From contig CAINND010000098.1 of NCBI GenBank assembly GCA_903851035.1, positions 1 through 39,388 of the forward strand: a stretch of DNA of 39,388 nt, given 5' to 3'. This DNA is from an uncultured Acidobacteriota bacterium (GTDB lineage: Bacteria; Acidobacteriota; Terriglobia; Terriglobales; Acidobacteriaceae). The notes under the pieces are model-generated. The model saw only the letters and a program-made list of their open reading frames with translations. It did not search any database and was not told the origin of the DNA. Position 1 is the stretch's first letter. Every line of letters starts with the position of its first letter. A program made the translations under genes and the position numbers. Below, piece after piece: positions 11,000 through 14,991 of this stretch.

Positions 11000-11417
11000 G
11001 GCAGCTTTGGCAGCTTCCAAACCAAAACAGGTAGTGGCCGGGCTGATGTTGCGCGGCACACAGGTATTGATTTGCCAGCGCAGCGAGCGGCAGAGCTTTT
11101 CCCTGCAATGGGAGTTCCCCGGCGGCAAGGTGGAGGCGGGTGAGACGCACTCCGAGGCGCTGGCACGTGAACTGCGCGAGGAACTCGGCATCGAGGCCAT
11201 GATCGGCCCTGAAGTTGCAACCATCTGCCACAAATATGCCGAGGGCCTGAGCGTGGAGTTGCACTTCTTTGTTGTCAGCAACTTCACCGGCGAGCCGCAA
11301 AACCGCGTCTTCCAGCAGATTCGCTGGAAGGAGCGCGCTTCGCTTGATGCGGAGAGCTTTCTGGAGGCGGACCGCAGTATCGTCAATCGGCTGTGTGCCG
11401 GAGATTTTACTGCTTAG
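10986..11417 (+). CDS. MutT-type Nudix hydrolase
   Basis: A 143-residue Nudix enzyme. The full Nudix box is visible (G-K-V-E-A-G-E ... R-E-L-R-E-E-L-G-I, roughly residues 46-68), preceded by WEFPGGK as in MutT. Such proteins hydrolyse nucleoside diphosphate-X compounds, typically 8-oxo-dGTP, to keep oxidised precursors out of DNA. TTG 10986 overlaps the upstream stop by 14 bases; TTG 10992 and TTG 11007 are alternatives. Its stop codon shares bases with the stop of the convergent Nramp-like gene, so no intergenic terminator exists between them. Confidence 0.88.
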   Translation: MRLPEAALAASKPKQVVAGLMLRGTQVLICQRSERQSFSLQWEFPGGKVEAGETHSEALARELREELGIEAMIGPEVATICHKYAEGLSVELHFFVVSNFTGEPQNRVFQQIRWKERASLDAESFLEADRSIVNRLCAGDFTA

Positions 11418-12664
11418 CTGTTCCCACCGAAGAGCATCATCAGCGTCAGCACAATCATAATGATCGTCGTCGCCCAGGCGATGATGTTGAAGAAGCGCGA
11501 GTTCACATGGCGCCCCATCAGCTCGCGCTTGTTGATAAGCAGCAGCATGGCCACCAGTACAAAGGGCAGCACCGCGCCGTTCACCACCTGCGAGAGGATG
11601 GTAATCTTCACCAGCGGCAGGTTGGGCCACAGGATGACGCCTGCCCCGGCGACGATCAATCCCGTGTAGAGCCAGTAGAAGAACGGCGCCTCGTGGAATT
11701 TCTTGTCCAGGCCGCTCTCAAAGCCCAGGCCCTCGCAAACGGCATAGGCCGTGGAGATGGGCAGGATGCTGGCGGCAAAGAGCGAGGCGTTGAACAATCC
11801 CACGCTGAAAAGAATGTAGGCGTACTTTCCGGCCAGCGGACGCAGACTGGCGGCGGCCTCAGCTCCATCTTTCAGGTCGTGATGCCCGGCGACGAAGAGC
11901 GTGGCGGCACAAGCGACGACGATGAACCAGGCGACCACGTCGGTAAAGATGCAGCCCACGATCACATCCAGGCGCGAGGCTCCGTACTGCTTCTCCGTAA
12001 TGCCCTTCTCGACCACGGAAGATTGCAGGTAGAACTGCATCCAGGGCGCAATGGTGGTGCCGATGACGCCGATGACCATGTAGAGATAGGTGCTGCTGCG
12101 GAAGAGATGAGGATTGGGCGGCACAATGGTCGCCATCCCCGCGGCCTTCCAGTCCGGATGCGCCAGCACTCCTGCTACCAGATACGCAAGATAGACAAAG
12201 CTGGCTGCCAGGAAGACCTTCTCCACGATCTGATAGCTGCCCTTGACGACCATCAGCCACACCAGCGCGGCGCAGAATGGCACGCTGACCCAGATGGGAA
12301 TGCCGAAGAGCGAAAGCGAACCGGCGATACCGGCAAACTCCGCCACCACGTTGCCAAAGTTGGTGATGACCAGTCCGGCCATCAGCAGGAAGGTGATGCG
12401 AAAGCCGAACTCCTCGCGAATGAGGTCGCTAAGGCCTTTGCCGGTGACGGCGCCCATGCGGGCCGTCATCTCCTGCACCACGATCAGCGCCAGGGTCATG
12501 GGAATCATGACCCACAGCAGCCCATAGCCAAACTGCGCGCCTGCCTGGGAATAGGTCCAGATGCCGCCCGCGTCGTTGTCCACGTTGGCGGTGATGAAGC
12601 CCGGGCCAACCACGGCCAGAAACATCATCAGACGGACTTTCCACATCTTCATCTTCGAAGGCAT
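11414..12664 (-). CDS. Nramp-family divalent metal transporter, atypical binding site
   Basis: An inner-membrane transporter of about 416 residues with ~11 hydrophobic segments. The family-defining first helix reads GPGFITANVDNDAGG (Asp29), so the usual D-P-G-N is D-N-D-A. In helix 6, where classical Nramp proteins have M-P-H with a metal-binding Met, this protein has I-A-P-W-M-Q, with Ala at residue 206. Loss of that Met is known from Nramp-related Mg2+ transporters and disfavours soft metals such as Mn2+ or Fe2+ (family knowledge). I infer Mg2+ or another hard divalent cation as substrate. A cytosolic MgtE-N/CBS protein is encoded one gene away on the same strand. GTG 12670 and ATG 12652 are alternative starts. 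Confidence 0.88.
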   Translation of the reverse strand: MPSKMKMWKVRLMMFLAVVGPGFITANVDNDAGGIWTYSQAGAQFGYGLLWVMIPMTLALIVVQEMTARMGAVTGKGLSDLIREEFGFRITFLLMAGLVITNFGNVVAEFAGIAGSLSLFGIPIWVSVPFCAALVWLMVVKGSYQIVEKVFLAASFVYLAYLVAGVLAHPDWKAAGMATIVPPNPHLFRSSTYLYMVIGVIGTTIAPWMQFYLQSSVVEKGITEKQYGASRLDVIVGCIFTDVVAWFIVVACAATLFVAGHHDLKDGAEAAASLRPLAGKYAYILFSVGLFNASLFAASILPISTAYAVCEGLGFESGLDKKFHEAPFFYWLYTGLIVAGAGVILWPNLPLVKITILSQVVNGAVLPFVLVAMLLLINKRELMGRHVNSRFFNIIAWATTIIMIVLTLMMLFGGNS

Positions 12665-12860
12665 CAACACCGCACCGGCTTGGTCTCTGGTTTACATTGG
12701 AATATCCAGAATAAATGGCTGGAAGGCGAAGCTCAAGGCAGCCATGTGAAAATCACTGGCAAAGGCTCTCCGCGCGCATAATTGATTGTGTTTTTGCTGC
12801 GCTCCGGAAGATAATTACTGGCATCGCCAGTACGTTAGCCGCGTGGATCGAGCTTTCTCA

Positions 12861-13619
12861 ATGCCCCTCATTTCGACCGAGCACGACGTCCGTCATCGCA
12901 TCTTCCAAATGATGAGCCTGCTCGGCGGCATCTTTGCCTGCTTCGTGATTGTGCCGGCCAATATCGTGGAAGGCCTGCCGCCAGCGATCAGCATAGGAGT
13001 CCTTCTCTTCGGACTCTGCTTTATCGGCGTCTATCTTGTCTCGCGCCGCTGGCAGGTCTATCCCTATTGGCTTTCCGCGCTGTTGGTGATGGGCCTGCTG
13101 AATTACGCATGGTTTTTTAATTACGGATCGATGGGGCCGGTTTCACTAATCTTCTTCAGCGCACCGATTCTTTTTACGGTCATCTTTGTTGGCTGGCGCC
13201 GGTGGTTCTTTAACGGCCTCTTTGTGGCCAATATTAGCTTGCTGTACGTCATTGAATACCAGCATCCATCATGGTTTGGCCGGTATGCAGATGGCATTGT
13301 CCGACTGGAAGACTTTCTCGTCACCATTCCCACGGCTGCCATTCTGTGCGTGCTGATGGTGAGCAGCGTGATGCAGGCCTATGAATCCGAGCACCAGCGC
13401 CTGCTGCATTCCAAGGCAGAGCTGGAAACAACGATGCTGGAGATGCGCGTGCTGAAGGGGTTGCTGCCCGTCTGCGCCTGCTGCAAAAAAGTCCGCACCA
13501 GTGACGGCAGTTGGACGCAGATCGAAACCTACATCGAACGCCACAGCGAGGCCAGCTTCAGCCACGGCCTGTGTCCGGAATGCATTCCGCAGTACATGGA
13601 TAAACCGGAAGACGCGTAG
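12861..13619 (+). CDS. Six-TM membrane protein with C-terminal four-cysteine module
   Basis: A 252-residue protein with about six transmembrane helices in the first 170 residues, then a coiled-coil linker (YESEHQRLLHSKAELETTM) and a C-terminal module. The module has CACCKK, about 30 residues containing SWTQIETYIERHSEASFSH, then CPEC. I recognise the module from C-termini of many PAS, receiver and sensor proteins ('LLPICs.CKkIRd..gyW.QiE.YI..Hs.a.FSHgiCpeC'). It has no assigned function that I know of; the two cysteine pairs suggest zinc or Fe-S binding. The linker-plus-module layout resembles a sensor without kinase or cyclase output. The start could be further upstream, but ATG 12861 gives a clean N-terminus. 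Confidence 0.75.
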   Translation: MPLISTEHDVRHRIFQMMSLLGGIFACFVIVPANIVEGLPPAISIGVLLFGLCFIGVYLVSRRWQVYPYWLSALLVMGLLNYAWFFNYGSMGPVSLIFFSAPILFTVIFVGWRRWFFNGLFVANISLLYVIEYQHPSWFGRYADGIVRLEDFLVTIPTAAILCVLMVSSVMQAYESEHQRLLHSKAELETTMLEMRVLKGLLPVCACCKKVRTSDGSWTQIETYIERHSEASFSHGLCPECIPQYMDKPEDA

Positions 13620-13657
13620 ATTCCAGCGCCCGGCACTTCCCTGTTACAACTGGCCTT

Positions 13658-14911
13658 TTACAACTGAGCCCGCAAGATGGCGATGACGTCGTCGGCCGTG
13701 ATGACGCCGGTGAGCGTGCCTTCGTCGTCCACCACGGGCAAGGTGAGCAGGTTGTATTTGTCGAAGATCTCCGCCACCTCGCGCTCGTCGGCCTCCGGCG
13801 AACAGGAGATCAAAGGATCGGCGGCCAGTTCGGCCAGCGGCGTCTCCGGGTGCGAGACGATAAGCTTTGCCAGCGGCACGGCGCCAACCAGCTTTTCGCC
13901 TTCTCCAATCAGGAAGATGGTGCTCATGCTCTCCAGCCCGCCCTCGAAGTGGCGCAGCATCTCCACGGCGTCATGCACGCGGGCGGTGGGCGCCAGCGCC
14001 ATGTACTCGGTGGTCATGCGGCCGGCGGCGGTGTCTTCCTCAAATTCCAGGAGCTCTTCCACCTCCTGGCGCTCTTCGGGCTGCATCTCCTGCAAAATGG
14101 CGTCGCTGCGCTCGTCTTCCAGGTCGGCCAGCAGGTCGGCCGCGGCGTCGGGATCCATCTCCTCCACGATGTCGGCGGCGCGTTCGCTCTCCATGGCGTT
14201 CACGATGGAGACCTGCAGCTTGGGATCGATCTCCTCCAGCGTGTCGGCCGCAACGTCTTCGTCGAGTGTCTGGAAGACGGCATCGCGCTCGGCCGGGCCA
14301 AGCTCTTCGATAATGTCGGCGATGTCGGCCGGGTGCAGGCGGCTGACGCGCTCCGACGAGATGCGCAATCGCACCCTTCGCGCCGGATCTGTCTCGATGA
14401 GGTTGACGAACTCCCAGGGGATGTTCTTCGGCGGAATGTTTTGCAGCCAGCGGCTCAGCGCGTATCGCGGCAGCACGCCTTTCAACAGTCGGCGGATGGC
14501 TCCCCGCGCGCCGGCATCCACAAATGCCACGCGCAGGTGCAGTCCCAGCGCCATCGCCGGATCGTCGCGCTCCATGGCCAGCTCAATATCGTTGACACGG
14601 ACGACCTTGCGCCCATGCACGTCGATAATCTGCTGGTCCAGCAGGTCGCGTTCCAGCAGCAACATACCCTCGCCGCTGGAGTAGGCGGGCAGTTCCGCGG
14701 CAATGGCAGCCGTGTGCACGCCGCCGTTCACGGTACGCAGCAGGTTGATTCCAACCAGCCGGTCGCCCTCCCGGGTGCGCACAATCAGCGAGGCGATATG
14801 CGAGGTGTCATCCTGCGGCAGCATGGCCACCTCACGCACGCGGCCCATGCGCGCCGAGTTGGCGTCATAGACGGTAAGGCCGAGCAGTTCGGAGAGCGCC
14901 ATGTGACTCAT
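13658..14911 (-). CDS. PRC-barrel / MgtE-N / CBS-pair cytosolic protein
   Basis: A 417-residue soluble protein. The N-terminus has one or two PRC-barrel-like modules (LLGLTVYDANSARMGRVREV; a second around GRKVVRVNDIEL). The middle is an acidic MgtE_N superhelix (HPADIADIIEELGPAERD, then repeated EEMDPDAAADLLADLEDE). The end is a pair of CBS domains (MTTEYMALAP..., then TLPVVDDEGTLTGVITADD). This is the Mg2+-sensing cytosolic half of an MgtE channel with no transmembrane domain. I infer a regulatory subunit for a separate transporter; the atypical Nramp gene nearby on the same strand is the obvious partner. The start at ATG 14911 is chosen because the longer open frame upstream has poor composition. 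Confidence 0.85.
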   Translation of the reverse strand: MSHMALSELLGLTVYDANSARMGRVREVAMLPQDDTSHIASLIVRTREGDRLVGINLLRTVNGGVHTAAIAAELPAYSSGEGMLLLERDLLDQQIIDVHGRKVVRVNDIELAMERDDPAMALGLHLRVAFVDAGARGAIRRLLKGVLPRYALSRWLQNIPPKNIPWEFVNLIETDPARRVRLRISSERVSRLHPADIADIIEELGPAERDAVFQTLDEDVAADTLEEIDPKLQVSIVNAMESERAADIVEEMDPDAAADLLADLEDERSDAILQEMQPEERQEVEELLEFEEDTAAGRMTTEYMALAPTARVHDAVEMLRHFEGGLESMSTIFLIGEGEKLVGAVPLAKLIVSHPETPLAELAADPLISCSPEADEREVAEIFDKYNLLTLPVVDDEGTLTGVITADDVIAILRAQL

Positions 14912-14991
14912 GGATTCAGAATACCCCCAAGGGAAACAAGCCTCCAAGCAAAAGCCGCAACGGGGGTATTTCAGGCTACAATCCTCCTCAT

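Follow-up and report, generated by a model that had tools for sequence, protein, structure and literature searches.

Does a soluble protein that resembles the regulatory half of the MgtE channel control the metal transporter with which it shares a locus? The question is raised by a 39,388-nucleotide (nt) stretch of DNA from an uncultured Acidobacteriaceae bacterium (contig CAINND010000098.1, hereafter the window), in which the genes for an Nramp-related divalent metal transporter (NrmT, also NRMT) and for such a soluble protein lie close together:

11414..12670, (-) strand: nrmT, Nramp-related divalent metal transporter, 418 amino acids from GTG 12670 or 416 from ATG 12664
13658..14911, (-) strand: soluble protein with PRC, MgtE_N and CBS-pair domains, 417 amino acids from ATG 14911

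A preliminary description of this DNA proposed that the two proteins form a split Mg2+ transport system in which the soluble protein gates or regulates the permease. Here we establish by computation the family and metal site of the transporter, its co-occurrence with the soluble protein and the replacement of MgtE by the pair. On balance, we lean towards the reading that the pair is a Mg2+ uptake system in which a soluble sensor restrains NrmT in trans.

The transporter and its soluble partner

NrmT matched the Pfam Nramp family (PF01566, E 1.9e-99). Its best relative of solved structure was EleNRMT of Eggerthella lenta (PDB 7qia, E 1.6e-105, about 46% identity by alignment), and the next was a classical Nramp at E 1.3e-31. 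The AlphaFold2 model of NrmT (predicted local distance difference test score, pLDDT, 77) likewise had 7qia as its top structural match with a TM-score of 0.88, and the classical Nramps among the matches listed scored no higher than 0.80. In the alignment, the metal site is formed by D33-A-G-G36 in transmembrane helix 1 (TM1) and T205-T-I-A208 in TM6. This is the NRMT signature DxxG-TxxA/T, as defined in PMC8806188 (DAGG and TTIAP in NrmT), and not the DxxN plus A/CxxM of classical Nramp and MntH proteins (DAGG and TTIA in NrmT); Trp210 occupies the position of the His in the classical M-P-H motif. The preliminary description had correctly replaced the metal-binding Met by Ala206, which is counted from ATG 12664 and is the same residue as Ala208 counted from GTG 12670. 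Its alignment of D-N-D-A with the classical D-P-G-N was out of register, beginning two residues early, and it is Asp33-Ala-Gly-Gly36 that aligns with D-P-G-N. The assignment to the Mg2+-type Nramps is supported by the closeness to EleNRMT and by the DAGG/TTIAP site. EleNRMT transports both Mn2+ and Mg2+ uncoupled from protons (PMC8806188), and by analogy the product of 11414-12670 is probably an Nramp-related Mg2+ transporter that would also work uncoupled.

The soluble protein matched MgtE_N (PF03448, E 7.3e-29), CBS (PF00571, E 1.9e-14) and PRC (PF05239, E 1.5e-6) in Pfam and no membrane family, the MgtE channel domain (PF01769) being absent. The cytosolic domain of MgtE (2yvy) matched its sequence with E 2.1e-30, and superposed on residues ~187-417 of its AlphaFold2 model (pLDDT 88) with Z 20.1 and a root-mean-square deviation of 4.0 over 242 residues. 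Pfam scored one CBS unit only; model residues ~291-417 superposed on CBS-pair structures. These results bear out the earlier account of a PRC, MgtE_N and CBS-pair protein without the channel. CBS and MgtE matches took up most of the fold search, which hardly probed residues before ~94; ahead of residue 135, the strands of the model may form another PRC-like barrel.

This protein is the sole MgtE_N found in the window's genome. We located the MgtE site residues from PMC5882242, with the Thermus MgtE numbering anchored on acidic residues at the published positions. In the alignment with Thermus MgtE, the window's protein retains acidic residues of Mg4 (D255, D408), Mg6 (D259) and Mg7 (D223). By analogy with MgtE, it may sense Mg2+.

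Distribution of the pair and of other Mg2+ transporters

Of 247 Acidobacteriota genomes, 56 had type I NrmT, and exactly these had the full-length soluble protein as well, with no exception either way, although related genomes are not independent and 26 of the 56 belong to one family. Type I NrmT was defined by at least 46% identity and a full-length partner by more than 190 bits, both cut-offs having been chosen after the score gaps were seen (46 to 39% and 192.7 to 155.3 bits). Absence of co-occurrence or adjacency beyond chance, which the preliminary description had named as evidence against its proposal, was not what the survey of this phylum returned.

The two genes were no more than 500 nt apart in 21 of the 56 genomes, 0.5-10 kb apart in 18 and separated in 17; sixteen of the separated cases lay on different contigs, which in draft assemblies gives no distance, and one had both genes on one contig 199 kb apart. 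In all cases on the same contig (40/40), the soluble gene was upstream of nrmT on the same strand. Similarly, 55 of 80 loci listed from named records had the partner, always upstream and on the same strand and in 32 cases within 500 nt. Among the 25 loci without a partner nearby, nine with long flanks on both sides and no partner within 7 kb were followed, and the partner was found elsewhere in all nine genomes. One of these genomes (that of locus L137) holds the partner as two overlapping pieces in different frames (G253:C41:136767-138003), which could be a frameshift, an assembly error or a split gene. A tree was built from 48 NrmT proteins out of the 56 and two outgroups, and it includes nine of the 17 separated genomes. 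On this tree, separation (9 rows) requires five changes; at least four are forced by well-supported branches, and some may be reversals.

Two records titled Bifidobacterium breve and Rhodanobacteraceae (L120 and L147) contain NrmT pairs that closely resemble those of Acidobacteriota, with 71 and 64% identity to the window's, and are possibly mislabelled or contaminated metagenome-assembled genomes.

Outside the phylum, 252 plasmid records had a match, of which we opened 12, hand-picked from 40 listed. NrmT and its partner were adjacent in 8/12, in both gene orders, on plasmids of Alicyclobacillus fastidiosus, Citrobacter, Cellulomonas, Leifsonia, Arthrobacter, Rhodococcus, Pseudarthrobacter and Mycolicibacterium, and thus in Bacillota, Actinomycetota and Pseudomonadota. 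The M-box Mg2+ riboswitch was present upstream of five of these eight pairs, in L194 with a small open reading frame (ORF) between, and was not found upstream of the other three. MgtC/SapB genes stand next to or near the pair in Leifsonia (L187, 6845-7627) and Mycolicibacterium (L194, 6081-6791). In the conjugative IncHI1B plasmid of Citrobacter freundii (L185) and in Cellulomonas (L186), the pair adjoins a heavy-metal P-type ATPase and an ArsR-type regulator.

The distribution of other Mg2+ transporters was compared with that of NrmT. The MgtE channel was present in 8/56 genomes with NrmT and in 137/191 others (Fisher p 9e-15, which ignores kinship and is therefore overstated). Counted by family, it occurred in 5/13 families with type I NrmT and in 55/60 others (p 8.6e-5), from a table compiled by hand in which the lack of MgtE in family f59 was inferred. 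CorA was unrelated to the presence of NrmT (34/56 and 118/191). Both MgtE and CorA were missing from 20/56 NrmT genomes, as against 13/191 others.

The window's genome is among those in which neither the MgtE channel (PF01769) nor CorA was found; CNNM/CorC-type proteins were not among the families searched. No MgtA-type ATPase reached the curated cut-off of 611 bits in the 41 genomes of the window's family, its own included, where the best match scored 53 bits. Weaker P-type ATPase matches occurred in 40/41 of these genomes, some of them long; the window's genome had short ones only. As that genome is 98.9% complete and in 121 contigs, these absences are not absolute. It also encodes a classical Met-containing Nramp (L001, on contig C78, with ATVMPH in TM6). 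The exclusion of MgtE, the lack of MgtE and CorA in this genome and the separate classical Nramp together argue that NrmT carries Mg2+, and with both other importers missing the pair is probably this organism's Mg2+ uptake system.

Proposed restraint in trans and its alternatives

The pairing itself has been published. Shin et al. 2014 (PMC4072509) described an MgtE-N-like protein in the local context of 'most' members of the NrmT group, an acidobacterial one included, and speculated that it serves in cytoplasmic feedback regulation or as a chaperone. The window's genome holds both genes of such a pair. Among the titles and abstracts listed by full-text searches, most subscription journals aside, we found no other treatment of the partner, nor any earlier report of strict co-occurrence or of MgtE exclusion; the parts consulted of PMC8806188, PMC13060092, PMC9606685, PMC13209247 and PMC6711546 do not treat the partner.

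In the mechanism that we favour, NrmT would carry hydrated Mg2+, and some Mn2+, inward down its gradient and uncoupled from protons, like EleNRMT. The soluble protein would read cytosolic Mg2+, possibly together with a nucleotide in its CBS pair, and at plentiful Mg2+ would restrain NrmT in trans, as the built-in cytosolic domain does for MgtE. Transport, sensing, contact between NrmT and its partner and the direction of control are what we infer here. The split-system proposal thus stands in three respects: the Nramp is of the Mg2+ type, the soluble protein resembles a fragment of MgtE that holds the sensor, and within one phylum the two have a functional link that exceeds chance. Gating is still a prediction, and in the one published test of such a pair the Acidobacterium capsulatum partner was without effect. 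With somewhat less than even confidence, we further suggest that the half of MgtE that regulates it became detached and was re-used, as a separate and even unlinked protein, to gate an unrelated LeuT-fold Mg2+ carrier. In Acidobacteriota, such a split system would have displaced the MgtE channel to a large extent, and some genomes would have it as their sole recognised Mg2+ importer.

Several observations weigh against the mechanism that we favour. According to PMC4072509, A. capsulatum NrmT rescued a Mn2+-uptake mutant fully and Mg2+ uptake partly, at low millimolar Mg2+ only, and its partner added no further improvement; purified EleNRMT transports without any partner (PMC8806188). As a feedback inhibitor is not expected to aid growth when Mg2+ is scarce, the null effect of the partner weighs less, and we suggest that it reflects the scoring of growth at low Mg2+ and not of restraint at high Mg2+. 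In the soluble protein, the C-terminus precedes most of the MgtE plug helix, so that E258 and D259 (Mg2, Mg3) fall beyond it, and Mg5 (MgtE D226/D250) is replaced by N387/A411; the protein therefore cannot act exactly as its counterpart does in MgtE. Nor is Mg4 general, since Asp stands at the D91 position in 28/50 aligned rows and at the D247 position in 30/50; the D95 position is Asp in 49/50 and the E59 position acidic in 42/50 (the 50 rows include two truncated copies, L004 and L006). Other Mg2+ routes exist, since MgtE and CorA are also missing from thirteen genomes without type I NrmT (two of these have type II). In the family table, two genomes show no gap of this kind, and some relatives have long P-type ATPase matches below the cut-off. 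Four of the 12 plasmid records (Alicyclobacillus curvatus, Methylobacterium, Caballeronia and Acidithiobacillus caldus) carry NrmT-like genes with NrmT-like sites and no adjacent partner, and a sequence search detected none at these four loci. Finally, no M-box (RF00380) was found in the window between 9000 and 18000 at E up to 5, nor at seven Acidobacteriota loci scanned.

The metal site adds a further point on that side. Among 48 partnered type I NrmTs, 33 had the NRMT signature (with TxxA or the closely similar TxxT), 8 further variants being counted along with these; six had TxxS and one AxxA, and 4/8 plasmid pairs had DxxA. Sites of the TxxS and DxxA kinds occur in unpartnered proteins too. 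In another NrmT group of the phylum, at 35 to 39% identity, the partner lies downstream in 12 genomes, with a gap of 292-387 nt, and all five of these that were opened had DNDAGG with TTIAP or TTITP. These 12 come from 34 lower-identity rows, the other 22 being without an adjacent partner. We opened 20 of the 22; they had been picked for lacking an adjacent partner, so that its absence is no separate finding, and two loci (L223 and L226) end at contig ends. Fifteen of the 20 homologues had DDDPSG with TTISP, two DNDAGA with TTIAP, two ENDGPS with ATVTP, and one was unreadable; a search with four partner sequences found no partner in their ~3 kb flanks. The 15 (among loci L208-L226) make up an Nramp-related group that occurs beside or instead of NrmT in Acidobacteriota without an MgtE-like neighbour. 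The candidate rule that the partner follows a Mg2+-type site was thus not cleanly borne out, with TxxS and DxxA among the partnered and NRMT-like sites among the unpartnered proteins. The partner goes with the NrmT subfamily and not strictly with the four ligand positions, the best separator being the stretch around the metal-binding Asp (N-D-A/S against D-D-P-S). As the site did not sort the proteins cleanly, we lowered our confidence very slightly in restraint in trans, and by half as much in the re-use of the MgtE half.

Of the alternatives, the strongest holds that the soluble protein is functionally linked to NrmT without gating it, as a cytosolic Mg2+ buffer, a chaperone, or a stability or assembly factor. 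Co-occurrence without linkage demands a shared pathway and not contact, no NrmT-partner fusion was noticed among the frame lengths (no dedicated fusion search was made), and a chaperone role is the alternative named by Shin et al. (PMC4072509). The part retained is, however, the regulatory half of MgtE, and we judge such a role unlikely, if worth keeping in mind.

We also consider it improbable that NrmT is mainly a Mn2+ importer whose MgtE-like partner has come to respond to Mn2+ or to some other cue. Such a transporter would fit the full Mn2+ rescue, the loss of Mg5 and the lack of an M-box at the acidobacterial loci scanned, and EleNRMT binds Mn2+ (dissociation constant about 100 uM) more tightly than Mg2+ (about 400 uM; PMC8806188). 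It fits poorly with the exclusion of MgtE, a Mg2+ channel, and with a genome that has a classical Met-containing Nramp besides and shows no MgtE or CorA. As EleNRMT, a Mg2+ transporter, also passes Mn2+ (PMC8806188), rescue of Mn2+ uptake does not exclude a Mg2+ role. That the association merely reflects common ancestry of clustered genes, as 247 non-independent genomes of one phylum might suggest, is highly improbable in view of co-occurrence in 56/56 genomes with 17 pairs on different contigs or far apart, several linkage changes on the tree, and adjacent pairs in both gene orders on plasmids of three other phyla.

Restraint of NrmT in trans would matter because Mg2+ entry needs limiting: a detached, exchangeable Mg2+ sensor, if real, would be a new mode of regulation for a LeuT-fold carrier and would account for the retention of an orphan MgtE domain. 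The genomes found without MgtE and CorA identify the organisms in which the role of the pair should show most clearly.

Locus layout and known systems

In the window, one gene lies between the pair:

12786..13619, (+) strand: ORF of 277 amino acids, or 255 from 12852, not part of the system

The preliminary description placed the two genes one gene away from each other on the same strand. Both are indeed on the (-) strand at the coordinates given above; the ORF between them runs in the opposite direction, which means that the two genes do not form an operon in the window. The product of this ORF has a hydrophobic N-terminal part and a Cys-rich C-terminus (CACCKKVR...CPEC), and matched no Pfam or NCBIfam family at E 0.001. 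Some match to it was found in 8/31 genomes searched, the window's own included; one genome of the same genus (G294) has a relative of 42% identity, and elsewhere the relatives cover the C-terminus only. It is absent from this position in the two closest relatives found, L104 and L142 (NrmT 90% identical, and 92% over 294 residues), where the pair is directly adjacent with gaps of 173 nt and 112 nt. Ten other interrupted loci were inspected. Nine (L085-L093) have related ORFs of 346-360 amino acids between the genes, oriented like the pair and mostly starting MKILY, with further large ORFs in L090-L092; the tenth (L084) has short ORFs only.

Promoter-like elements were noted ahead of both genes:

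12706..12717, (-) strand: CATTTATTCTGG, conserved -10-like element upstream of nrmT, from the alignment
12731-12736, (-) strand: TTGAGC, possible -35 for nrmT, with a 17-nt spacer to the -10-like element
14917..14925, (-) strand: GGTATTCTG, putative -10-like element ahead of the ATG of the soluble gene, proposed from sequence

Some variant of the nrmT element was present in 20/22 aligned upstream regions, and TTTAT[TC]CTG occurred in 23/104 nrmT upstream regions and 1/546 control ORFs. A scan for sigma-70 consensus promoters gave no match, the TTTATTCTG element being drawn solely from the alignment. Its conservation points to a separate promoter for nrmT; this would leave the genes of the pair free to drift apart. 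TATTCTG lies ~10 nt ahead of the ATG of the soluble gene, with TATTCTC or similar there in several relatives, hinting at near-leaderless transcripts; it was found in 4/79 soluble-gene upstream regions and 10/546 controls. Co-regulation of both genes through one shared motif was unsupported, as TTTAT[TC]CTG occurred in none of the 79 soluble-gene upstream regions.

Among known systems, EleNRMT (PMC8806188, PDB 7qia) has the DxxG-TxxA site and the fold in common with NrmT and differs in that transport was shown for the purified protein alone. The cytosolic domain of the MgtE channel (2yvy, 2oux) shares MgtE_N and the CBS pair with the soluble protein, with Z about 20; the soluble protein lacks the channel (PF01769), the full plug helix and Mg5, and has an extra N-terminal PRC domain. 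The pairs of Shin et al. (Clostridium acetobutylicum, and A. capsulatum ACP2976/2977; PMC4072509) consist of the same two kinds of protein as in the window. Compared by its published description, the A. capsulatum pair consists of direct neighbours, whereas the window has the opposite-strand ORF between the genes; as in the window, its partner is upstream of NrmT and no M-box was observed. The pairing and the idea of regulation have been in print since 2014, and it is this published idea, rather than a new kind of system, that the co-occurrence and the exclusion of MgtE support.

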